Assembly (NCBI GenBank): GCA_944326565.1
Contig: CALVEL010000001.1
Coordinates: 248,001-312,000, forward strand
DNA length: 64,000 bases
Direction: 5' to 3'
Source: Candidatus Gastranaerophilales bacterium
Lineage (GTDB): Bacteria; Cyanobacteriota; Vampirovibrionia; Gastranaerophilales; Gastranaerophilaceae
Shown here: piece by piece, positions 5,038 to 50,720 of the stretch
Numbering within the stretch: the stretch's first letter is position 1
Layout of the letters: each line of letters opens with the position of its first letter
Notes under the pieces: generated by a model
Told to the model about the DNA's origin: nothing
Databases searched by the model: none
The model's input: the letters and a program-made list of their open reading frames with translations, nothing else
Made by a program: the position numbers and the translations under genes

Positions 5038-6384
5038 ATGAAAATTTTACCTGTTGGAAATATTAGTCAAAATGTTTTCAAAGCATCCGAGGTTAAAGAA
5101 AAGGCACAGAAAGAAGAAACTTTGTCATTAAAAGACAAAACAGTTCTTATAACATCGGCTTTGGGTGTTTTAGGAGTAAGTGCTGCTGTAGGAGTCGGAG
5201 TTATCCAACATGGCAAAATAAAAAAATTGCAAAAGAAAATCAATGATATAAATATTGAATCCAGCGATACTTTGAGAAATGTTATAAAAAATCTAAGCTG
5301 TGAAGAAAAAATTTTGCCATATAAAATTATGGATTTAGAGGATACTGCTTTATATAAAAAATTTGAGACTTCCGGGCAAAATATAGTTAATTTTATTCGA
5401 CATTGTATGGAAGATTCAGTGAAAATTAAAGAATTTTTATATGCTATCACTTCAGATGAGGCAGCATCAAAAGAGTTTATAAAAGAAATTGTTACAAATC
5501 CAAGAGATAGTTTGCATATTACAAAACTTTTAAAAGATAAAATTGGCGGAATAAAAAATTTAACAGAATGGCTTCAAGAGGATGGCGGATATCTTTCTGC
5601 TTATAAAAAGTATGCAAATAATTTATTCGAAAACGCCCAAAATCCTGATGATTTATTAAAAGTTTCTCCTAATTGGCATTTATTTGCATTACAAAGACGT
5701 TTTGGAAACGATATTCGTTTTGGTTATATACCGGAAGATTTTAAATTTGTTGATGATTTTAAAAACTTTGCAAATTGGCTTGCTTATCTTCCCTTGGAAC
5801 GAGGTAAGGTAAGTAAATTGGAGTATAATAGACAAAAACTGCTTATTGAACCGCTTTCTTTTGGTGAGTCCAGTAAAATCCCATTAAAAATACAAATGGC
5901 TAATTGGAATGATGAGCCTATTTCAAAACCTTATGTTATAAAAGTTCAAAGCAGATGGTTCAGGCATGGTGACAATTCAAGTGCAAAAATTGCAGAAGCT
6001 TACCGCTCGGATTCTGTTTTTGTAGATGCTCAAATTGATAGATATTTGAACTTAAATGATTGTAAAAATGCTAATAAATTGTATTTTTATGACTATGGTG
6101 CCGAGATGGCTATTTATGATTTGGAAGATGGGTCTGCACCTGATTTTATGCACAATGGCATAAGGTATGTAAATAAAAGACTGCAAGATTTAAATGATTT
6201 AGGTGTATACTACAATGATGCGACACCAAGTAATTTCATAGAAAAGGATGGGAAATTAACAGTCATTGATATTGGAGAATCCTCTTTCATAGATCCTTTG
6301 CGTCCGGGGATTCCGCATCTGCATTTTGAGCTTCCTAATTGGGCGGGATCTTCTTTGCCTGATTTAAGAAGATTGCAATTGTAA
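5038..6384 (+). CDS. Membrane-anchored kinase-like protein with N-terminal MKI...F-x-A tag
   Basis: 448 residues from ATG 5038; a TTG seven codons upstream is a poorer start. The N-terminus MKILPVGNISQNVFKAS matches the short pattern of three other proteins here. One hydrophobic segment (about residues 33-56, ITSALGVLGVSAAVGVGVI) is a likely membrane anchor. The C-terminal third looks like a degenerate kinase/phosphotransferase fold: YVIKVQS with Lys302, YYNDATPSN (Asp394, Asn399) as a catalytic loop with Asn in place of His, and VIDIGE (Asp411) as the DFG equivalent. No clear glycine loop is seen. The gene ends seven bases from a convergent gene. It may be an enzyme or a pseudokinase; target unknown. 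Confidence 0.5.
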   Translation: MKILPVGNISQNVFKASEVKEKAQKEETLSLKDKTVLITSALGVLGVSAAVGVGVIQHGKIKKLQKKINDINIESSDTLRNVIKNLSCEEKILPYKIMDLEDTALYKKFETSGQNIVNFIRHCMEDSVKIKEFLYAITSDEAASKEFIKEIVTNPRDSLHITKLLKDKIGGIKNLTEWLQEDGGYLSAYKKYANNLFENAQNPDDLLKVSPNWHLFALQRRFGNDIRFGYIPEDFKFVDDFKNFANWLAYLPLERGKVSKLEYNRQKLLIEPLSFGESSKIPLKIQMANWNDEPISKPYVIKVQSRWFRHGDNSSAKIAEAYRSDSVFVDAQIDRYLNLNDCKNANKLYFYDYGAEMAIYDLEDGSAPDFMHNGIRYVNKRLQDLNDLGVYYNDATPSNFIEKDGKLTVIDIGESSFIDPLRPGIPHLHFELPNWAGSSLPDLRRLQL

Positions 6385-6391
6385 GTTACTT

Positions 6392-7480
6392 CTATTGTGT
6401 AATATTATCAGCTTGGGCTAGAAAATCAATTATATTAGAAATCTTGGGAAGTTTGGTATTTTTTTTGCCAAGAGCCAGAAAGCCCTCTTTTATTCCAAGA
6501 ATGCAAGCAGGACAAGCTGTAAGAACGTAATCAGCTTTTGTATTTATTATATTTAAAGCTTTTTGTTTTGATATTTCTAATGATAATTTTGGATTTTTAA
6601 CAACAAAAGTCCCTGCAAAACCGCAGCATGCATCAAAATCTTTCATTTCAATATATTCTATATTTTCACATTTTTCAAACAGCTTTTTTATAAAATTAAT
6701 ATTTTCAAGATGACAAGGCTTATGGAACGTGACTTTTAAGGGCTTTTTAAATTTGAATTTTATATTTTGCATAGCTAAAAATTCTGCAGCATTAATTACT
6801 TTTAATTCTCCATAGGATTTTAAAGTACTTTCGCAGCTTGCACAGTCAGTCAAAATATAATCATATTCACAATCAAGCTGTTCTAAATTGTGTTTTTTTA
6901 CTTCTTCAAATCTTTCTAAATTTCCGCTTGATAAAAAGGGTAGTCCACAGCAATCAAAGTCTTTTTCAATTATTTCAGTATCCAAATTTTTAAATATTTT
7001 TTTCAGAGCATTTGCAGAAGTCGGAAAAATTTCATTTACACAGCCTTTGAAATAGATTAACTTTGTTTTTTTATCATTATGATTTTGAGATAATTTTTTC
7101 TTATTATTAAAGCAATGAAAAATTTTAAAAAATTTTATTAAATTTCCAAAAACAGCTTTGCTTTGGAGAAATTTTTCAAATTTTCCTTGAAAAGTATCTT
7201 TTGCATACTGATGTTTTGCTGTATTAAAAATTTCACAAACATCAATATTGCTTGGACAAAAATCCTTGCATTTTCCGCACCTCATACACATATCAAGGTA
7301 TTTTTCGATGTTTTTGTTGAGTTTTAAATCACCTTTCAAAACTCCTTCAAGCATAATGAATTTACCTTTTGATACGGCGCAATCATTGCCTGTAATTTTA
7401 TATACAGGACATACTGACTGACATAGTCCGCATTTGGAACATTTGTTTATTTCATCGGCAAAGTCTTTTAATTCTTTCAT
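6392..7480 (-). CDS. GlcF/LutA-like Fe-S oxidoreductase subunit (two 4Fe-4S motifs, two CCG domains)
   Basis: 362 residues. The N-terminal ferredoxin part has two C-x2-C-x2-C-x3-C-P motifs: CSKCGLCQSVCP near residue 15 and CMRCGKCKDFCP near residue 65. The C-terminal half has two cysteine-rich CCG modules (FDCCGLPFLSSGN and FDACCGFAGTF), as in glycolate oxidase GlcF, lactate utilisation LutA and heterodisulfide reductase subunits. Such proteins pass electrons from a flavin subunit to quinone or another carrier. No flavin subunit gene (glcD/lutB) is adjacent, so the substrate is unknown. It is last in the ftsI-murE-nagA-ilvD run, 23 bases after ilvD. Confidence 0.8.
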   Translation of the reverse strand: MKELKDFADEINKCSKCGLCQSVCPVYKITGNDCAVSKGKFIMLEGVLKGDLKLNKNIEKYLDMCMRCGKCKDFCPSNIDVCEIFNTAKHQYAKDTFQGKFEKFLQSKAVFGNLIKFFKIFHCFNNKKKLSQNHNDKKTKLIYFKGCVNEIFPTSANALKKIFKNLDTEIIEKDFDCCGLPFLSSGNLERFEEVKKHNLEQLDCEYDYILTDCASCESTLKSYGELKVINAAEFLAMQNIKFKFKKPLKVTFHKPCHLENINFIKKLFEKCENIEYIEMKDFDACCGFAGTFVVKNPKLSLEISKQKALNIINTKADYVLTACPACILGIKEGFLALGKKNTKLPKISNIIDFLAQADNITQ

Positions 7481-25825: not shown

Positions 25826-26650
25826 TTATTTAAGTAAATATTGGGCAGAGCAACATGCACCTGAAATTGCTTGTCCGTTAAGTAAATCGCTAGAGCCAAG
25901 AAATCCTTGTGCGGATGCTAAGCCTTGAGTTTTAGTGCATTTACATTCACCACCATTATTTTGTTTGTTATATGTGCCATCAGCTCCAAGTGGTTTGATC
26001 CAATCTTCAGTTACCATAACCATAAAAACATCTCTGCCTATTTGGTTAGGTCCTCTTGAAAAACTGTTTACATCAACACTTATCCAGCCGGTTGCATATC
26101 CTCCGAAATAAATTACACTGCCATCTTCAAGCAATACTGCTTTATTATCAAAGTCCCAAGGGGTTACTCCTGTTGAATTTTTGCATGAAACAGGGGAATG
26201 TGTTGATTTGCCTGCATCTAACTGTAAACTTCCATAAAATGAATAATATGGGTCACAAATTCCAACCCAACGCCGATTTGATTCTTTGCATTCATTGTTA
26301 GTTTCGTAGGGGGATTTTCCACAGTGGTCTATAACTTTTAAGTGGGATACAAATCTATCAATAAATTCTGGAGAAAGTGTTGTGTAATTTCCCGCAGCCC
26401 ATGTTCCTGGTTTGTTGCATTTTAGTAATGTGGTTTTATCGTCAGTTTTTGTTGAAACACAAATATACCCATCCATTTCAGATTTTACTGCTTGATAAAT
26501 ATTTGCTATTTCGCTATATTTTTTTTTCCACATTGCAATATGTTGTAAGTCTTGCATTTTTCCGATTAAAGCAGGCAATGTCATTGCCATTACTACACCT
26601 ATAATGCCCATAGTTATTAAAACTTCTGCAAGTGTAAGTGCCTTTTTCAT
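25826..26650 (-). CDS. Type IV prepilin-like protein
   Basis: 274 residues. The N-terminus MKKALTLAEVLITMGIIGVV is a class III prepilin signal: cleavage after Ala4, Glu at +5, then a hydrophobic helix. The globular part has many Cys (for example GECKCT and GACC near the end), suggesting disulfides outside the cytoplasm. It contains DVNSFSRGPNQIGRDVFMV near the C-terminus. Such proteins are processed by a prepilin peptidase and built into type IV pili or type II pseudopili. AGGAGG precedes the ATG. No assembly gene lies next to it, so it may be a minor pilin. Confidence 0.85.
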   Translation of the reverse strand: MKKALTLAEVLITMGIIGVVMAMTLPALIGKMQDLQHIAMWKKKYSEIANIYQAVKSEMDGYICVSTKTDDKTTLLKCNKPGTWAAGNYTTLSPEFIDRFVSHLKVIDHCGKSPYETNNECKESNRRWVGICDPYYSFYGSLQLDAGKSTHSPVSCKNSTGVTPWDFDNKAVLLEDGSVIYFGGYATGWISVDVNSFSRGPNQIGRDVFMVMVTEDWIKPLGADGTYNKQNNGGECKCTKTQGLASAQGFLGSSDLLNGQAISGACCSAQYLLK

Positions 26651-42879: not shown

Positions 42880-44064
42880 TTATAAAAGACCGATGGATTT
42901 ATGCTTTTCAATGATTATTTTTGCCATCTCATCCACTTTTTTGAAATCATCTTCAGTAGGTTTTCCTTTGATTTGTATAGGCTCAATTAAGTCTAATTTT
43001 AAAGGTGCCAGCATATTGATAATTACATCAAAAAGCTTTCCTCCCCAACCGTAGGAACCGATTATTGATGCAAATTTTGCTTTTGGTCTTAGAACTGCTG
43101 CTAGATATGCTACATTTACAGCCATCGGATGAGGTCCTGCAAGTACCATTGATGTCCCCATTATGATTGTTGCCGCATCTACTAAAGCCATTGCAAGATC
43201 ACCCAAGTCATCATCTACGATATCAAATTTGAAAGTGTCTATTCCTGCTTTTTCAAGATCTGATGATAGTTTGTCAATCATTTCTTTTGTGCTGTTATAC
43301 ATTGATACATAAGGAAGTACAACAAGATTTTTCGGATTGTCTGAAGTCCAATCTGTATAAGCATCAAGTATATAAGATGGGTTTTTATGCACAGGCCCAT
43401 GACTTGGTAAAATCATATCGACATTCATATCTTTTATCATTTGGGTGTATCTTTTGCACATCATTCTGAATGGCATCATAATTTCAGCGTAATATCTTTT
43501 GGCACTTTTATATAAAGCTTCAGATTCAACTGCAAATACATCATTAAATGTATAGTGTGCACCTAAAAAGTCGCAGGTACAAATAACATTATCTTCTTTT
43601 ATATAAGTGAACATTGTATCGGGCCAATGAACTCCAGGGGCAAAAATGAATTTTAAAGTTTTATCACCTAGAGAAATTTCTTCACCATCAGAAATTTCTC
43701 TTATTTTTTCAGATGGAACATGAAGCATATTTCTTATATTTTCTGCACATTTAGGGTTTGTTATTACTATTGCGTTAGGGTATTTTTCTAATAATGCAGG
43801 AATAGATCCTGAATGATCCTGTTCTCCATGGTTTGCTATTATATAATCAATTTTTCCGATTTGATTTTCGGATAATCTTTTTAGGTATTCAGTTGTCTTT
43901 GGCGGGTACATTGTATCAATCAAAGCTGTTTTTTCAGAACCCTTTACCAAATATGAATTATAGCTTGTTCCATGTTCTAATGGAATTAATTCATCAAAAA
44001 TTCTTCGGTCACAATCATTTAGACCACAGTAGTAAATGTTATTTTTAATTTCTTGAAATTTCAT
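42880..44064 (-). CDS. Class A flavodiiron protein (O2/NO reductase)
   Basis: 394 residues. The N-terminal beta-lactamase-like domain has the diiron motif NHGEQDHSG (H79-x-E81-x-D83-H84), then GVHWPDTMF and LPSHGPVH supplying other ligands. The C-terminal flavodoxin domain (from ~residue 250) binds FMN: VLPYVSMYNSTKEM and GSYGWGGKLFD. Such proteins reduce O2 to water or NO to N2O using rubredoxin electrons. A rubredoxin gene lies upstream in the same strand run. It follows the divergent rubrerythrin by 18 bases. Confidence 0.95.
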   Translation of the reverse strand: MKFQEIKNNIYYCGLNDCDRRIFDELIPLEHGTSYNSYLVKGSEKTALIDTMYPPKTTEYLKRLSENQIGKIDYIIANHGEQDHSGSIPALLEKYPNAIVITNPKCAENIRNMLHVPSEKIREISDGEEISLGDKTLKFIFAPGVHWPDTMFTYIKEDNVICTCDFLGAHYTFNDVFAVESEALYKSAKRYYAEIMMPFRMMCKRYTQMIKDMNVDMILPSHGPVHKNPSYILDAYTDWTSDNPKNLVVLPYVSMYNSTKEMIDKLSSDLEKAGIDTFKFDIVDDDLGDLAMALVDAATIIMGTSMVLAGPHPMAVNVAYLAAVLRPKAKFASIIGSYGWGGKLFDVIINMLAPLKLDLIEPIQIKGKPTEDDFKKVDEMAKIIIEKHKSIGLL

Positions 44065-44082
44065 TTTAGAATTTCTCCTTAT

Positions 44083-44625
44083 CTATTTATAATCATTTGG
44101 CTTTTTGTAAAAGAATACATTTTCTTTTACGCAAAGCGGACAAAAATCCGGTTCTTCAACTTGTCTGAAAATGCTTCCGCATACAGAACATGTCCAATTA
44201 AAAGTCCCATCATAATTTGGTTCGACATTATCTTTCAGTTTCCATATAGCTTTTTTAAGTCTTTCTAAGTGGATAATTTCAATATTTTCAATGTTTTTCA
44301 AAAGCCCTGAAATATGTTCAAATCCTTCCTCTTTAGCTTTTTGTGCATATTCTTCGTATTTGCCTTCGACTTCTTCTTTTTCCTGATTGTAAGCGGTCTC
44401 AAGACAAGAAACTAAGTCAGGGTTTTGTGCATCGTTTATCCATTTGTACCATAATTTTGCGTGTTCTTTTTCCATGTCTGCAAATAAGTTTAACAATCTG
44501 CAAAGATCTTCTTCTCCTTGAAGTTCAGCGATATGAGAATATATTTCATATTCAGTTCTTCGTTTTGCCACAAATTCAAAAGCTTTTTGTAGATTTTTTT
44601 CTGTTTCAGTTCCTTTTATGTCCAA
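44083..44625 (-). CDS. Divergent rubrerythrin paralogue with a changed diiron ligand
   Basis: 180 residues, clearly paralogous to the next gene: four-helix ferritin-like domain then a rubredoxin-like C-terminus (CSVCG...CPLC). In the canonical copy helix A reads GESEARNKY with Glu20; here that position is Val19 (FVAKRRTEY). The EKEH ligands of helix B and the Glu pair of helix C are kept, as is His in helix D (IEIIH). The loss of one iron ligand means it may bind one iron, have altered chemistry or be regulatory. It sits between rubrerythrin and the flavodiiron gene; a terminator separates it from rubrerythrin, so read-through or its own promoter is needed. Confidence 0.85.
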   Translation of the reverse strand: MDIKGTETEKNLQKAFEFVAKRRTEYEIYSHIAELQGEEDLCRLLNLFADMEKEHAKLWYKWINDAQNPDLVSCLETAYNQEKEEVEGKYEEYAQKAKEEGFEHISGLLKNIENIEIIHLERLKKAIWKLKDNVEPNYDGTFNWTCSVCGSIFRQVEEPDFCPLCVKENVFFYKKPNDYK

Positions 44626-44664
44626 TTTATCCCCCTTACTTTTTTTATTTATATATTACCACAT

Positions 44665-44698
44665 AAAAAAGGCTTTGTACAAATACAAAGCCTTTTTT
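44665..44698 (-). terminator. Terminator between the two rubrerythrin genes
   Basis: A perfect 15-bp stem (44665-44679 with 44684-44698) and a four-base loop. It follows the rubrerythrin stop. Confidence 0.9.
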
Positions 44699-44701
44699 AT
44701 A

Positions 44702-45244
44702 TTAGTAGTTTTTAGCTTTAATAAAAAAGTAAGCTTGCGGGTGTTTACATACCGGACATATTTGGGGAGCTTTTTCTCCTTCTGTAACGTGTCCGCAGTT
44801 TCCGCATTCCCAAGTTACATTTTCAGATTTTTCAAAGACTGTTCCATTTTTAACAGCATCTAAAAGTTTTCTGTATCTTTCTTCATGTTCTTTTTCTATT
44901 TTTCCTACCATTTCAAATAGAACTGAAAGATTATCAAATCCTTCTTCTTTAGCTTCTTTTGCAAATCTTGCATACATATCGGTCCATTCGTAATTTTCGC
45001 CTTCTGCTGCATCTTGCAGATTGGTAAGAGTATCAGGAATTTTATCTCCATGTAATGCTTTAAACCACAATTTTGCGTGTTCTTTTTCGTTATTTGCAGT
45101 CTCTTCAAAAATTCTGCTTATCTGAACATAGCCTTCTTTTTTAGCTTGAGATGCATAGTAAGTGTATTTATTTCTTGCTTCGGATTCACCGGCAAGTGCT
45201 GTTTTTAGGTTTTGTTCAGTTCTTGTTCCTTTTAAATCGGGCAT
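44702..45244 (-). CDS. rbr: Rubrerythrin
   Basis: 180 residues. The ferritin-like domain has the canonical diiron ligands: [15 protein letters not shown] (Glu20), NNEKEHAK (Glu53, His56), AEGENYEW (Glu83, Glu86) and [10 protein letters not shown]. The C-terminus is a rubredoxin-like FeS4 module (CGNCG...CPVC). It reduces H2O2 in anaerobes with electrons from rubredoxin. It follows the 45-residue rubredoxin and PerR genes; GGAGGGA precedes the ATG. Confidence 0.95.
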
Positions 45245-45266
45245 AATTCCCTCCTTTTTTTATTTA

Positions 45267-45404
45267 CTATTCTTTTTCAAACATATCTTTTCCAACATTG
45301 CATAAAGGACATGTGTAATCATCTGGTAAGTCTTGAAAAGCCACATTGTCATTTTCTGCAGGGTCATATACATAGCCGCATACTGTACATACAAATTTTT
45401 CCAT
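45267..45404 (-). CDS. Rubredoxin
   Basis: A 45-residue protein read from ATG 45404: [19 protein letters not shown], then [19 protein letters not shown]. The C-x2-C-G and C-P-L-C motifs bind one iron. It carries single electrons to rubrerythrin and the flavodiiron protein. AAAGGAG precedes the ATG. It lies 11 bases after perR and 22 before rubrerythrin, so these form one operon. It is slightly shorter than usual rubredoxin (about 52). Confidence 0.95.
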
Positions 45405-45415
45405 CTTTTTCTCCT

Positions 45416-45808
45416 TTACTGTTTATTTTTACATTCTTTACAAATTCCTGTAAAGACAATATCATGACTTTGTATTTCAAAGCCTGTTGAGTTTTCTGTT
45501 TTTTCTATCAAATCAGGTGCTACATCTGCACTTATATCGAATACTCTATTGCATTTTGAACATATAAAATGGTAATGTTTATGAGTATTGTGATCAAAAT
45601 GTGATGAAGTTTCAAGCCCGTCAATTTTTTTAATTATACCGTTTTGCGTAAGTTGATTAAGATTTCTGTATAAGGTTGCTAAACTGATTTTTGGATCTTT
45701 TGATTTGATTTTTTCATAAAGATATTCTGCTGTCGGGTGGACAACATTTTCCTTCAGTGTATCTAATATTATTTCTCTTTGCTTTGAATAATTCACTTTA
45801 TTCACCAT
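45416..45808 (-). CDS. perR: PerR-type Fur-family peroxide regulator
   Basis: 130 residues. A winged-helix N-terminus ([13 protein letters not shown]) and a C-terminal metal domain. The regulatory metal site of PerR is matched: His24, Asp72, His78, His80 and Asp91 ([13 protein letters not shown]). Asp72, not Glu, in this position points to PerR over Fur. Four structural Cys are C83, C86, C123 and C126. Oxidation of the iron-bound His would release DNA. It is first in the perR-rubredoxin-rubrerythrin operon. A candidate operator starts only four bases upstream. Confidence 0.92.
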
Positions 45809-46277: not shown

Positions 46278-48872
46278 ATGATGAAAAAAATACTAATTGT
46301 TTTTTTTGCAATGATAATGGGCTGTTCTGTTTTTGCAAATGAAGCGACTATATATAATTTGGAGAACGGGCAGACAGTAATTATTAAAGAAGTCCATTCA
46401 AATCCTATTGTTACGGTCGATACCTGGATTAAAACAGGATCAATAAATGAAAATGATAAAAATAATGGGGTATCTCATTTTTTGGAACATTTGTTTTTTA
46501 AAGGTTCTACTAATCATGCCCCCGGGGAATTCGATAAAATCTTAGAGACTAAAGGAGCTATCACAAATGCTGCTACAAGTAAGGATTTTACTCATTATTA
46601 TATAACTATCCCATCTAATTATTTTGATTTAGCGCTTGAATTGCATGCTGATATGCTTTTGCATCCTCTAATCCCAAGAAAGGAACTGGAAAAAGAAAGA
46701 AAAGTTGTAATTGAAGAAATTGCAAAAGATGAGACTGAGCCTCAAAGTGTTGTATATGATAATTTAGTTTCAATGTTATACACGACACATCCATATAAAC
46801 GTCAAGTTATAGGTACAAGAGATATAATAAGTACAATTCATCGTGATGAAATTTTAAATTATTATAATCAGTTTTATGTTCCTTCAAATATGGTGACAAT
46901 AGTAGTAGGTGATGTAGATACACAAAAGACTTTAGAACTTATAAAAAAATATTTCAATTGTGAGCAGAAAAAAGTTGTAAAAGAAAATTTTGCTCAAGAA
47001 AAACAATTAACCGAGCAAAAAAGAAAGATAGATTACCTTGCTACCCAGTCTGGATATATGCTGATAGGATTCAGAGGTGTGAAAGCAACTAACAATGATA
47101 CATATGCTTTGGATGTTTTGTCTACAATTTTAGGAGATGGAAGATCTTCTGTATTTTACAGAAATATAAAAGATCAACAACAGTTAGCTTTTTCAATAGG
47201 TGCATCAAATGCTGGATTCAAAGATGATGGAATTTTTTACATTTCTGCTAATTTTGTTCCAGAAAATCTTACAAAACTTGAAAATGCAGTTTTTGAAGAA
47301 ATTGAAAATATACAAAAAAATGGCGTAACTTCTCAGCAGGTAGAACTTGCTAAAAATATTATCGAACGTGATACTTATTACAGCAGAGAGTCTATTTCTA
47401 ATATTGCACAAGAAATCGGGTATACAATGGTAATAACTGATGACATAAACTATTACAAAAATTATATTGACAATATTAAAAAAGTAACGTTGGCTGATGT
47501 AAAAAGGGTTGCAAATAAATATTTGGGAAAAGACAAATCGGCTGTTTCAATAGTTTTGCCTGAAAACAGTAAAGAAGTTGAGATATCAGCTAATCTTCCG
47601 ACAAAAGAAGTGAATCCGGCTGTATTAGTGAGTGAAGCTCTCGGTACCAAAAAATATCAGCTATCAAATGGTGCAAATCTTTTATTAACTCCCAATGATG
47701 TCAATGAAATTATAGCTATCAGTATTTGGGCAAAAGGCGGAACTTTTTTGGATAAAATCCCAGGGACTTCAGTTATGACATCTGATGTAATGATGAAAGG
47801 CACCAGAAAATACTCATCAATTGAGCTTGCAAAAGTTTTAGAAGATAACGGAATAAAAATAGAACCGTCAGTCAGAGCAGATGCTTTTACTGTAAATGTA
47901 CTTACGACAAAACCTGAATATGAAAAAACGATAGAAATTCTTAATGAAGTGATTAATAACGCAACGTTTGATGACTATGAAATAGAGAAAGCTCGCAATG
48001 AAAAGTTGAACAAAATAAAACGCAATAGAGATATTCCTCTTCAAGTAGCAATAGAAAATTACAAATCTTTAATTTTTGAAGGTTCACCATATTCATATAC
48101 TAGCAAAATTTTTGAAAAGACATATCCTAAAATCGGGCATGAAGAAATTGTAGATTATTATAATAAAATTTTCGCCCCGCAAAATGTCGTAATTTCTGTT
48201 AACGGGAATGTAGATAGTGAAAAAGTAATAAATGATTTTACGAAGATATTTGAAAATAAAAAAGGTGAGACTTTTAACTATGCTAACTATTCACAGTTAA
48301 TTAATCGTTTAACATCACAAAAAGATATTACTAAAGTTATGCCCGATACAAAGACTGATTGGATTTTTATAGCTTGGCAAGTGCCAGGAGTCGATAATAA
48401 AAAAGATTATGCAGCTTTGCAGGTGATAGATTCTCTTTTGGGATCCGGCATGAGCTCAAGATTATTTAAAAATATCAGAGATCAAGAAGGACTTGCTTAT
48501 CAATTAGGCTCCGGCTACGGACCTAATGTATTGAAAGGGTCATTTGTAGTCTATATCGGCACTAATCCGCAATCAATGGAAAAAGCAAAAAGTCTTTTGC
48601 TAAAAGAAGTTTTTAGACTTAAAAAAGAATTCATAACAAGTAAAGAACTTCAGGAAGCAAAAGATAAATTAATCGGGAATTACATTATTTCGCTCGAAAC
48701 TAATCTTGAAAAAGCTTCCAGTATAGGCTGGTATGAAATATCAGGTCGAGGTTATTCTTATAAAGATGAATATATAAGGCTGATTAATTCAGTGACAGAA
48801 TCTGATATAATAGAAGTTGCAAATAAATACTTTAATGATAATTATGTAATATCAATAGTAAAGCCTCAGTAA
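46278..48872 (+). CDS. Exported M16 zinc peptidase with two M16 units
   Basis: 864 residues with a signal peptide (MMKKILIVFFAMIMGCSVFA). The first M16 unit has the inverted zinc motif HFLEH (residues ~69-73) and the distal Glu in ERKVVIEEI. The second half, from about residue 455, repeats the fold but reads GTSVMTSDVMMKGT where HxxEH should be, so it is catalytically inactive, as is normal for paired M16 proteins. It degrades peptides in the periplasm. GAGAGG precedes the ATG; a second ATG follows directly. Its stop codon lies inside a terminator. Confidence 0.93.
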   Translation: MMKKILIVFFAMIMGCSVFANEATIYNLENGQTVIIKEVHSNPIVTVDTWIKTGSINENDKNNGVSHFLEHLFFKGSTNHAPGEFDKILETKGAITNAATSKDFTHYYITIPSNYFDLALELHADMLLHPLIPRKELEKERKVVIEEIAKDETEPQSVVYDNLVSMLYTTHPYKRQVIGTRDIISTIHRDEILNYYNQFYVPSNMVTIVVGDVDTQKTLELIKKYFNCEQKKVVKENFAQEKQLTEQKRKIDYLATQSGYMLIGFRGVKATNNDTYALDVLSTILGDGRSSVFYRNIKDQQQLAFSIGASNAGFKDDGIFYISANFVPENLTKLENAVFEEIENIQKNGVTSQQVELAKNIIERDTYYSRESISNIAQEIGYTMVITDDINYYKNYIDNIKKVTLADVKRVANKYLGKDKSAVSIVLPENSKEVEISANLPTKEVNPAVLVSEALGTKKYQLSNGANLLLTPNDVNEIIAISIWAKGGTFLDKIPGTSVMTSDVMMKGTRKYSSIELAKVLEDNGIKIEPSVRADAFTVNVLTTKPEYEKTIEILNEVINNATFDDYEIEKARNEKLNKIKRNRDIPLQVAIENYKSLIFEGSPYSYTSKIFEKTYPKIGHEEIVDYYNKIFAPQNVVISVNGNVDSEKVINDFTKIFENKKGETFNYANYSQLINRLTSQKDITKVMPDTKTDWIFIAWQVPGVDNKKDYAALQVIDSLLGSGMSSRLFKNIRDQEGLAYQLGSGYGPNVLKGSFVVYIGTNPQSMEKAKSLLLKEVFRLKKEFITSKELQEAKDKLIGNYIISLETNLEKASSIGWYEISGRGYSYKDEYIRLINSVTESDIIEVANKYFNDNYVISIVKPQ

Positions 48873-48884
48873 ATGAGGCTTTTT
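48860..48884. terminator. Terminator overlapping the M16 stop codon
   Basis: AAAGCCTCA (48860-48868) pairs with TGAGGCTTT (48874-48882); the stop TAA (48870-48872) is in the loop. It also faces the convergent paralogue gene. Confidence 0.85.
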
Positions 48885-48887
48885 AAA

Positions 48888-49490
48888 TTACAAAAGCCAT
48901 ACTTTAACAGGTCTGCCTACTTGGTTATATAGCTTGTTATCGACAACTACACCTTGCAGATCACCGTTTGCAAGAAATATGTATTCATATCCATCTACTG
49001 CAAAGAAATGGACTTTTTGCAGATATCCGTTGAAGGCATATACTGCTTTGTAATATGGCAGGACATTATCATCTCCTGTTAAAATTATTACCTGGTAAAG
49101 TTTTCCGAAAGTATTGTATACATATTCAGTATATGGATCATTGTCGTAAATAACAGAATAATTAGCAAGAATTTTATCTGCCATCTGGTAGTAATTTCCT
49201 TTAACTCTATATCCTGATTTAGAAAGTTCTTTACCATGTTTTACATGTTTTAAATTTTCCTGATAGTTCTCATCTTTTTGAAATTCTTTGAAATCTGTTT
49301 TATATTTGTGATGAGATTCATCAAAAATACCTGTTTTTTCAAGGTATTCATGGTATACCTCAATCCTTTTGTTTCTGTCCTGTTGAGTAGTGAAGCGGTA
49401 GTCTTTCTGGACTCTGACACCTGCAATAGATTCAGGACTTAAAACAAATATTAAAGTTAAACAAGATAAAATTACTAAATATTTTTTCAT
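48888..49490 (-). CDS. Exported protein of a tandem paralogous family, copy 3
   Basis: 200 residues with a signal peptide (MKKYLVILSCLTLIFVLSPESIA). The C-terminal half has beta-strand-like Tyr-rich repeats: KILANYSVIYDNDPYTEYVY, FGKLYQV, YEYIFLANGDLQGVVVDNKLY. The next upstream gene has the same pattern at matching positions (KILISYAIQYKKNPRTVYYY...GEFQGVWFMDKRY). So they are paralogues. Function unknown; probably periplasmic or surface exposed. Confidence 0.75.
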   Translation of the reverse strand: MKKYLVILSCLTLIFVLSPESIAGVRVQKDYRFTTQQDRNKRIEVYHEYLEKTGIFDESHHKYKTDFKEFQKDENYQENLKHVKHGKELSKSGYRVKGNYYQMADKILANYSVIYDNDPYTEYVYNTFGKLYQVIILTGDDNVLPYYKAVYAFNGYLQKVHFFAVDGYEYIFLANGDLQGVVVDNKLYNQVGRPVKVWLL

Positions 49491-49491
49491 T

Positions 49492-50109
49492 TTACCAATT
49501 TGTCCTTGTCAAATCCTGTTTTGCGTGTCGGTCATATCTTTTATCCATAAACCAGACACCTTGAAATTCTCCATCAGGCTTATACATATATTGCATATCA
49601 TGTGATACAAAATAAATTGCACTTATCATTTTTCCGTTAATTTTATACTGTTTTGACCAATAAGGAAAATTCGGATAATTTTCAGAAAGCATATCAACAT
49701 ATTTTAAATGCCCCAAAGCATCATAATAATATACAGTTCTTGGATTTTTCTTGTATTGGATTGCATAACTTATTAAAATTTTACCGCTGAAAAAAGCGCT
49801 GAGTCTATATTCTTTTGTCTCTGTGATTCCTTCTTTTGCCTCATAATAATGATATTGTACATCTCTGTCTTTTACAAAATCTTTATATAGATTTTTAAAC
49901 TCTTTTCTTTTGTATTTGTATACGGTATCTTCATCAAAAATTATATTCTTGTAATTTTGAATTATAGTGTCTCGTTCAATTTGAGACATATCAAGCCAGT
50001 TAAATTCGGTCTTTCCTTGTAGGGTGATAGTTTCATTATTTTCTTGAGCAAATGTGCAATTTGAAAATAATCCTAAAAATATAAATAAAATGGTGCAAAT
50101 TCTTTTCAT
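49492..50109 (-). CDS. Exported protein of a tandem paralogous family, copy 2
   Basis: 205 residues with a signal peptide ending near NCTFAQ. After it, NWLDMSQIERDTIIQNYKNI resembles the SWNELSQNERNFFIQKNIDN segment of copy 1. The C-terminal part matches copy 3. It ends one base before copy 3 begins. Unknown function. Confidence 0.75.
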   Translation of the reverse strand: MKRICTILFIFLGLFSNCTFAQENNETITLQGKTEFNWLDMSQIERDTIIQNYKNIIFDEDTVYKYKRKEFKNLYKDFVKDRDVQYHYYEAKEGITETKEYRLSAFFSGKILISYAIQYKKNPRTVYYYDALGHLKYVDMLSENYPNFPYWSKQYKINGKMISAIYFVSHDMQYMYKPDGEFQGVWFMDKRYDRHAKQDLTRTNW

Positions 50110-50123
50110 AAACTTTCTCCCTG

Positions 50124-50720
50124 CTAATTGAGCTGTTTCCCATTAATATTATAAAGCTTGTTATTATCTTGTATTTTTTCGATATTCATTTTGCTGTCAA
50201 AGAATATTTGATAATCTTTTGTGTATAATATACCCTTTTGTAATTGTCTGTATTTATTATATTCTTTTTTTAGTAAATTGTCAGAAGAAATCTTTTGATA
50301 TGTTGTAATTTTAGTTAAATTCCCACTTTTGTTAAAATTAAGAGTAATATTGTCAGAAGTTAGTGAATACCCTGAATTAATCGGCATTGATGCTCCTCGT
50401 TTACCGAGTTGATGAGGGCCAGGAATTAAATAGTTCCAGCTTTCCTGTTGAATTTTTACTCCATCAATTGAAGTTTCACCTTTTTTATGCTTTTTATAAT
50501 TTGGGTCTCTTGTATTATTTAGCTTGAAAATCTTCTCTAAAGCTTTGTCTGAAATATCAATAGGAGCTGCAGAATTAATATTATCAATGTTTTTTTGGAT
50601 AAAGAAATTTCTTTCATTCTGACTAAGCTCATTCCAGCTTATACCATAAGCTTCATTGACAACAAAAGATGCAAATAAAAATGTAAAAATAATACTAAAT
50701 GATAAAATGCTTTTTTTCAT
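50124..50720 (-). CDS. Exported protein of a tandem paralogous family, copy 1
   Basis: 198 residues with a signal peptide (to about residue 26, NEAYG). It shares the LSQNER segment with copy 2 and a final NKLYN segment with copy 3, but is the most divergent. It is first in the three-gene run, 14 bases before copy 2. Unknown function. Confidence 0.7.
   Translation of the reverse strand: MKKSILSFSIIFTFLFASFVVNEAYGISWNELSQNERNFFIQKNIDNINSAAPIDISDKALEKIFKLNNTRDPNYKKHKKGETSIDGVKIQQESWNYLIPGPHQLGKRGASMPINSGYSLTSDNITLNFNKSGNLTKITTYQKISSDNLLKKEYNKYRQLQKGILYTKDYQIFFDSKMNIEKIQDNNKLYNINGKQLN

Follow-up and report, generated by a model that had tools for sequence, protein, structure and literature searches.

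Three small genes stand end to end on the minus strand of a 64,000-nucleotide stretch from Candidatus Gastranaerophilales bacterium (assembly GCA_944326565.1, contig CALVEL010000001.1, positions 248,001 to 312,000; the whole stretch is called the window here, and positions refer to it), and they raise the question of whether their products are related and what such proteins do after export. The adjoining open reading frames are P3 (50124..50720; followed by sequence, profiles, a structural model and rates), P2 (49492..50109; sequence, genome search, model and rates) and P1 (48888..49490; sequence and genome search). They encode 198, 205 and 200 amino acids and are separated by 14 and 1 base. 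An initial annotation, whose copy 1 is P3 and whose copy 3 is P1, had described three tandem exported paralogues, and this is borne out by the reading frames, the hydrophobic N-termini, the alignment of P1 with P2 and a profile match of P3. Judged from sequence, the three belong to a family of exported proteins in the gut order Gastranaerophilales, of which P2 is the widespread copy. Concerning their function, the simplest and likeliest view, to which we give about an even chance, is that P1-P3 are small exported YD-like binding sheets without a toxin, located in the periplasm or outside the cell.

P1 and P2 align over about 155 residues with a local score of 161, compared with a shuffled mean of 40, and none of 2000 shuffles scored as high. 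The P1-P3 score of 65 was reached by 3 of 2000 shuffles, and the P2-P3 score of 44 is not significant, as 286 of 2000 shuffles came as high (162 of 2000 with 25 residues removed). Pairwise similarity thus exceeds the shuffles for P1-P2 and P1-P3 and fails for P2-P3, and it is profiles that join P3 to the others. When an alignment of P1 and P2 types (A1, 20 rows) was compared by hhalign with one of the P3 type (A2, 4 rows), a probability of 98.3 and an E-value of 2.1e-14 over 188 columns were obtained, a score that includes the signal peptide, the shared start of which contributes. A P2 profile finds P3 relatives of other species with E-values of 8e-6 to 1.7e-3 (for 10,000 sequences), the window's own P3 scores just 0.055, and a P3 search of the own genome returned no match except P3 itself. 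From these comparisons P1, P2 and P3 can be regarded as homologous, P3 being joined mainly through profile comparison. The shared segments that had been pointed out are present: W-x-[E/D]-[L/M]-S-Q-x-E-R reads WNELSQNER in P3 and WLDMSQIER in P2, and G-x-x-Q-G-V-x4-K-x-Y reads GEFQGVWFMDKRY in P2 and GDLQGVVVDNKLY in P1. More copies, for which the annotation had proposed a profile search, were found across the order, among them P4 (176 amino acids), a further member on another contig of the own genome, which the P1/P2 profile finds with an E-value of 1.2e-15. All four carry a conserved aspartate motif in the helical region (KDENY in P1, KDRDV in P2, RDPNY in P3 and KDENY in P4).

P2 is matched at E≤0.001 in 114 of 146 genomes of the order, in 95 of them at 1e-24 or better (counted from the match list), whereas the remaining 19 matches are weaker and partly come via the P4 type. 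P1 is kept throughout the window's genus, being found at an identity of at least 60% in 11 of 11 genomes (the own included); outside the genus, in the same order sample, the best E-value is 6e-15 and identity is at most 34% among the matches listed. P3 occurs in 6 of the 146 genomes, all from the window's genus (6 of 11), and the five others are 33-38% identical to it. A second P1-like gene, P1b, is present in 7 of the 11 genomes, and one contig (L004) bears two P3 copies. P1, P1b and P3 were detected in the window's genus alone, beside P2. In a class-level search 87 of 194 genomes match, with one outside the order among the matches listed (G207, E 2.3e-6, 56% complete), and in a phylum-level search 77 of 194 match, those listed all lying in the window's own family; both samples are rich in genomes of that family. 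Eleven relatives comprise Candidatus Gastranaerophilales (6), Candidatus Scatousia (1) and four others, of which one is from a cecum and one from a rumen. A phage or plasmid origin is not supported, as P1 had no match in phages, P2 none in plasmids and A1 none in viral contigs; P1 weakly matches phrog_21341 (6.2e-4), which is annotated as of unknown function. Scans of Pfam, NCBIfam and PHROGs yielded no family giving a convincing name, and among the literature matches listed, judged by titles and abstract openings, nothing concerned this exported family. The kind of protein is probably already known, and the family is without a name in the libraries searched; defining it would label genes matching in the 114 genomes of the order sample.

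The N-termini of P1-P3 are hydrophobic, with a best 12-residue Kyte-Doolittle mean of 2.7-3.0, and past residue 30 the best 19-residue mean is 0.64. The putative signal peptides, located by hydropathy and with cleavage sites placed by eye, comprise about 26 residues in P3 (50643..50720, cleavage after AYG), 21 in P2 (50047..50109, after TFA) and 23 in P1 (49422..49490, after SIA), all on the minus strand. Hydropathy revealed no second membrane segment in the three proteins, and neither a lipobox nor a sorting motif was seen by eye. Their assignment as exported proteins is supported by the hydrophobic N-termini; with no anchor seen, the periplasm is as likely a final location as the outside of the cell.

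Structure prediction, likewise proposed by the annotation, gave models of P2 and P3 in which helices and strands follow each other in the same sequence. The P2 model (predicted local distance difference test, pLDDT, 80.8) shows helices at residues 43-92 followed by 10 strands at 101-202, and the P3 model, calculated from a separate alignment of 4 sequences, has a pLDDT of 80.1; helices followed by an antiparallel strand meander are thus predicted for both. Turns of the form Y-x3-G-x-[LMF] recur in the C-terminal half at a spacing of 16-26 residues, three times in P1 and P2, four times in P4 and once in P3. From model, motif positions and profiles, the YD-like hairpins of P2 are placed at residues 125-205 (49495..49737; YDALGHL, YKINGKM and YKPDGEF), and those of P1, from alignment and motif positions, at residues 121-190 (48921..49130; YNTFGKL, YAFNGYL and FLANGDL). 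The strand meander of P3 (residues 118-190, 50151..50369, from model and motif positions) has degenerate hairpins and FNKSGNL as its single full motif. The motif [YF]x3Gx[LIVMF] is found 3.0 times per protein in P2 (43 rows; 0.37 after shuffling), 3.0 times in P1 (12 rows; 0.51), 3.36 times in P4 (14 rows; 0.30) and 1.25 times in P3 (8 rows; 0.35), so that tandem Y-x3-G-x-[LIVMF] units, presumably hairpins, characterize P1 and P2 and, more weakly, P3. A link to known proteins comes from a profile of 25 P4-type proteins: run against all PDB sequences, it had 14 matches at E≤5, each of them to an Rhs or teneurin chain, with 8h8a as the best (1.6e-6). A wider P2 profile (A4, 22 rows) had 3 PDB matches, the top two being Rhs chains at 0.076 and 0.13.

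Most YD repeats known so far belong to large toxin-carrying or cell-contact shells, and those of Rhs/YD-repeat proteins and teneurins consist of many repeats with a cargo or tip. P1-P4 have the Y-x3-G-x-L hairpins in common with such proteins (RhsP, Tse5, teneurin-2), but with about 175-205 amino acids and one short sheet they are unlike the many-repeat shells. Full features of Rhs polymorphic toxins (protease, variable C-terminal toxin) are absent, as P1-P3 end at 198-205 amino acids and no further domain was recognised in them. That an exported YD protein without a toxin can bind a partner supports the binding-sheet view, and Bd0109 from the hit locus of Bdellovibrio bacteriovorus is such a case: it is exported, contains about 13 YD repeats but no toxin tip, binds a partner protein and is co-transcribed with Bd0108 and pilus genes (PMC3818213, PMC4267844). 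The likeness is one of description, and the repeats of Bd0109 compare with three or four motifs here.

In the favoured explanation, each protein would consist of a signal peptide, a short helical region with the aspartate motif and a C-terminal meander in which the hairpin turns are YD-like. Once exported and cleaved, the sheet would remain in the periplasm or leave the cell, and it would bind a protein or glycan partner without acting as an enzyme. P2 would hold one conserved task throughout the order, and P1, P1b and P3 would be copies with variants of this task that arose by duplication, faster change and interspecies exchange. The analysis shows hydrophobic export signals, homology, a predicted layout and a profile likeness of the P4 type to YD repeats, and from there on, for the location of the sheet after export and its non-enzymatic binding role, we infer. 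Several observations weigh against this explanation. P3 has just one full YD-like motif; taken singly, the strongest stretch matching 8h8a reaches an i-E of 0.14, the full-length E-value summing several repeats; and the A1 profile (P2 and P1) found no Rhs proteins. Among the scores listed, no scanned member exceeds the Pfam RHS_repeat (PF05593) cut-off of 22 bits, the best being 15.5 for a P4-type protein, and an RHS_repeat search of the own genome gave no match at the P1-P4 sites. At E≤0.001, Foldseek found nothing similar to the P2 model in the PDB and viral sets, nor to the P3 model in the PDB. With the comparison tool VIA, which warns for Z below 8 that a common arrangement alone may be meant, all Z values stay below 8; the top match of the P2 model is the anti-sigma factor RsfG (5.0), with teneurin-2 at just 3.8, and BLIP-like periplasmic proteins equal the teneurins against the P3 model. 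Neither a binding partner nor a constant gene neighbour was recognised at the loci examined. Because the fold searches are weak and all Z values lie below 8, the sheet is termed YD-like and the family is not filed as RHS. P1-P3 have no Pfam RHS_repeat match, and those of the P4 type are weak, with 2 of 25 members matching RHS_repeat (best 0.025) and 3 of 25 matching MORN_2 (best 0.2), below the cut-offs among the scores listed; weak matches of single members of alignment A3 to unrelated Pfam families (best NUMOD1, 0.0014) were taken as chance. If the explanation is true, the stand-alone exported proteins that this gut order has kept, with their three or four YD-like turns, would offer a minimal system for asking what a YD sheet binds.

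The paralogues differ in how fast they change. Nonsynonymous (dN) and synonymous (dS) rates were calculated for ten pairs of species within the genus, using the final 170 codons; pairs with a dS of zero or at saturation were left out, and many dS values are near or above saturation, which makes the ratios rough. The dN/dS ratio is 0.01-0.10 for P2 and 0.04-0.10 for P1 (6 of 10 pairs each), 0.14-0.55 for P1b (4 of 5 pairs) and 0.20-0.39 for P3 in 6 of 7 pairs, the seventh reaching 1.08 on one synonymous change. As the neighbouring M16 peptidase gene has a ratio of 0.03-0.10 (from a separate table), the evolution of P2 and P1 resembles that of any ordinary exported protein. Both genes are under strong purifying selection. 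The dN values by themselves agree, amounting to 0.553 for P3, 0.073 for P2 and 0.077 for P1 when the window is compared with G041. The fast divergence ascribed to all three copies therefore holds for P3, with its low identity within the genus, and for P1b, but not for P2 and P1. Positive selection on P3 is not supported, as its sole ratio above 1 (G041/G133, 1.08 here and 1.37 in the separate table) rests on about one synonymous change, and no dependable ratio above 1 was found among the species pairs compared. The proposed local duplication agrees with the presence of P1, P1b and P3 in this genus only and beside P2, but a quick version of the tree, which includes over-long frames (about 75 upstream codons of P3 in L052 and L056), does not nest them within P2.

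Exchange between species may have added to this. G064 and G084 are 100% identical over roughly 3.2 kb, from P2 into the M16 gene at its 3' end, despite a dS of 0.29 in the gene that we take to be rpoB, 0.52 in M16 and 0.58 in P3. For P3 of G041 and G133, about one synonymous change is counted over 170 codons, against saturation in P2. These identities beside divergence elsewhere suggest recent interspecies exchange at this locus, unless the assemblies are chimeric. At the level of loci, blocks of 98-100% identity with more divergent flanks cover P2-P1-P1b in one species pair (L052, 7401-10600, compared with L056) and P3 in another (L050, about 6000-6800, compared with L085).

P4-type genes form tandem arrays in the genus g13, with 8, 3+3, 4, 3, 3 and 2 copies at the loci examined. 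When 75 shared codons at the start and 75 at the end were compared for every pair of copies, the N-terminal part was at least 20 points more alike in 23 of 56 pairs and the reverse occurred in 0 of 56; some of these comparisons also include over-long frames. All 23 are found among the 28 pairs of five of the six arrays; L119, which has 8 copies, contributes 0 of 28. As fourfold sites show the same trend, the N-terminal likeness looks like homogenisation or exchange and not constraint alone. The tandem arrays at L120, L121, L122, L123, L124 and L125 have near-identical N-terminal parts and divergent C-terminal sheets, and two copies in L119 (7385-7906 and 8679-9200) are identical across the entire gene.

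These patterns could also be expected from surface or secreted proteins under diversifying selection, serving in adhesion or in escape from immunity or phages. The fast divergence of P3 and P1b, the near-identical blocks common to different species and the five of six g13 arrays that are constant N-terminally and differ in the sheet would fit such a role. However, P2 and P1 are under strong purifying selection, the P3 ratios are low in all pairs but one, no anchor and no reliable dN/dS above 1 were seen, and the 8-copy array lacks the contrast between N- and C-terminal parts, so that we consider it unlikely. A related proposal, which we also regard as rather doubtful, is a recognition repertoire specific to this lineage of non-photosynthetic gut relatives of cyanobacteria. 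It would be made of exported mini-YD proteins in which the leader and helical part stay constant and the sheet varies, and it would have diversified by tandem duplication, gene conversion and interspecies exchange, with P2 and P4 as fixed founders.

Other explanations start from the fold. P1-P3 might be periplasmic BLIP-like or PepSY-like proteins (DUF2874 type), in which helices pack on a sheet that binds envelope proteins to inhibit or chaperone them, with no relation to YD repeats. Export and the helix-then-sheet order agree with this, and the layout resembles that of Bacteroides proteins such as 4k61, 4fr9 and 3msw, whose VIA scores are near those of teneurins: the P3 model reaches a Z of 6.7 with 3msw and 5.2-5.6 with 4ipb, 4hbr, 4k61 and 4fr9 (teneurins 4.8-5.7, OspA up to 5.4, RhsP 4.4), and the P2 model 4.7 with 3msw and 4.4 with 4k61. 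We nevertheless judge it distinctly improbable, as such families were not among the Pfam scan matches, the PDB profile matches are YD proteins and the spacing of the glycine turns is YD-like. Least probable of all, in our opinion, is a role as immunity proteins, inhibitors or antitoxins that would counter, in the envelope, the toxins of neighbours. The proteins are exported, small, tandem and variable, and TipC2, an exported immunity protein, is in the VIA list of the P3 model (Z 4.0). MORN_2 (PF07661), which includes YwqK-type antitoxins and likewise has short glycine-turn hairpin repeats, accounts for the weak P4-type matches mentioned above, and several viral MORN models are among weak Foldseek matches, but its best score is 12.4 bits with a cut-off of 29.6. 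Moreover, no toxin gene was recognised beside the arrays, where most neighbours were left unclassified, and P2 is conserved order-wide, unlike typical immunity genes.

With regard to the surroundings, the gaps of only 14 and 1 base make it probable that P3, P2 and P1 share a single transcript, read in that order, with P3 as the presumed first gene. Upstream of P3, in opposite orientation, lies the presumed rpoB, named from its sequence. On the other side is the exported peptidase that the annotation had correctly noted, an M16 peptidase with a hydrophobic N-terminus (46278..48872, plus strand; from sequence, Pfam scan and locus comparison), which is transcribed towards the three genes and is therefore not part of their operon. 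A stem-loop read in the sequence, GCCTCA-gtaaa-TGAGGC with a T run (48860..48884, no strand assigned), spans the M16 stop codon and is a possible terminator between the convergent P1 and M16 genes; a separate scan had no entry for it. The M16 peptidase was rejected as a functional partner, since the neighbourhood varies between genera and families: rpoB and M16 enclose P2 in the window's genus and in some others, and further genera and families have it at different sites. A cluster at 42880-45808, the products of which we take to be a flavodiiron protein, two rubrerythrin-like proteins and a Fur-type regulator, adjoins the M16 gene, whole or in part, in many loci of the genus. P4 is preceded by what is presumably an ABC-F type ATPase gene and followed by a gene with a glucosaminidase domain. 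Its neighbourhood is not constant either, because among 20 other P4-type loci the ATPase homologue is near the P4 type only in L127 and, as a weak one, in L131.

The pilus link described for Bd0109 is not supported here, since 11 of 42 P2 loci have a pilin-like gene no more than 3 kb away, which is near the rough own-genome expectation, although loci from many genomes are here compared with the density of one, by two different detectors; Tad machinery genes were not searched for. Of the 11 positive loci, 6 are from the window's genus, and for P4 the count is 2 of 21. Pilin-like proteins themselves are, by motif matches, greatly expanded in the own genome (G000, 1.87 Mb), where 77 N_methyl prepilin motif matches, 66 of them marked over the cut-off, amount to about one per 24 kb. 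Most of them head frames of 210-370 amino acids, and one lies in the window at 25826-26650.
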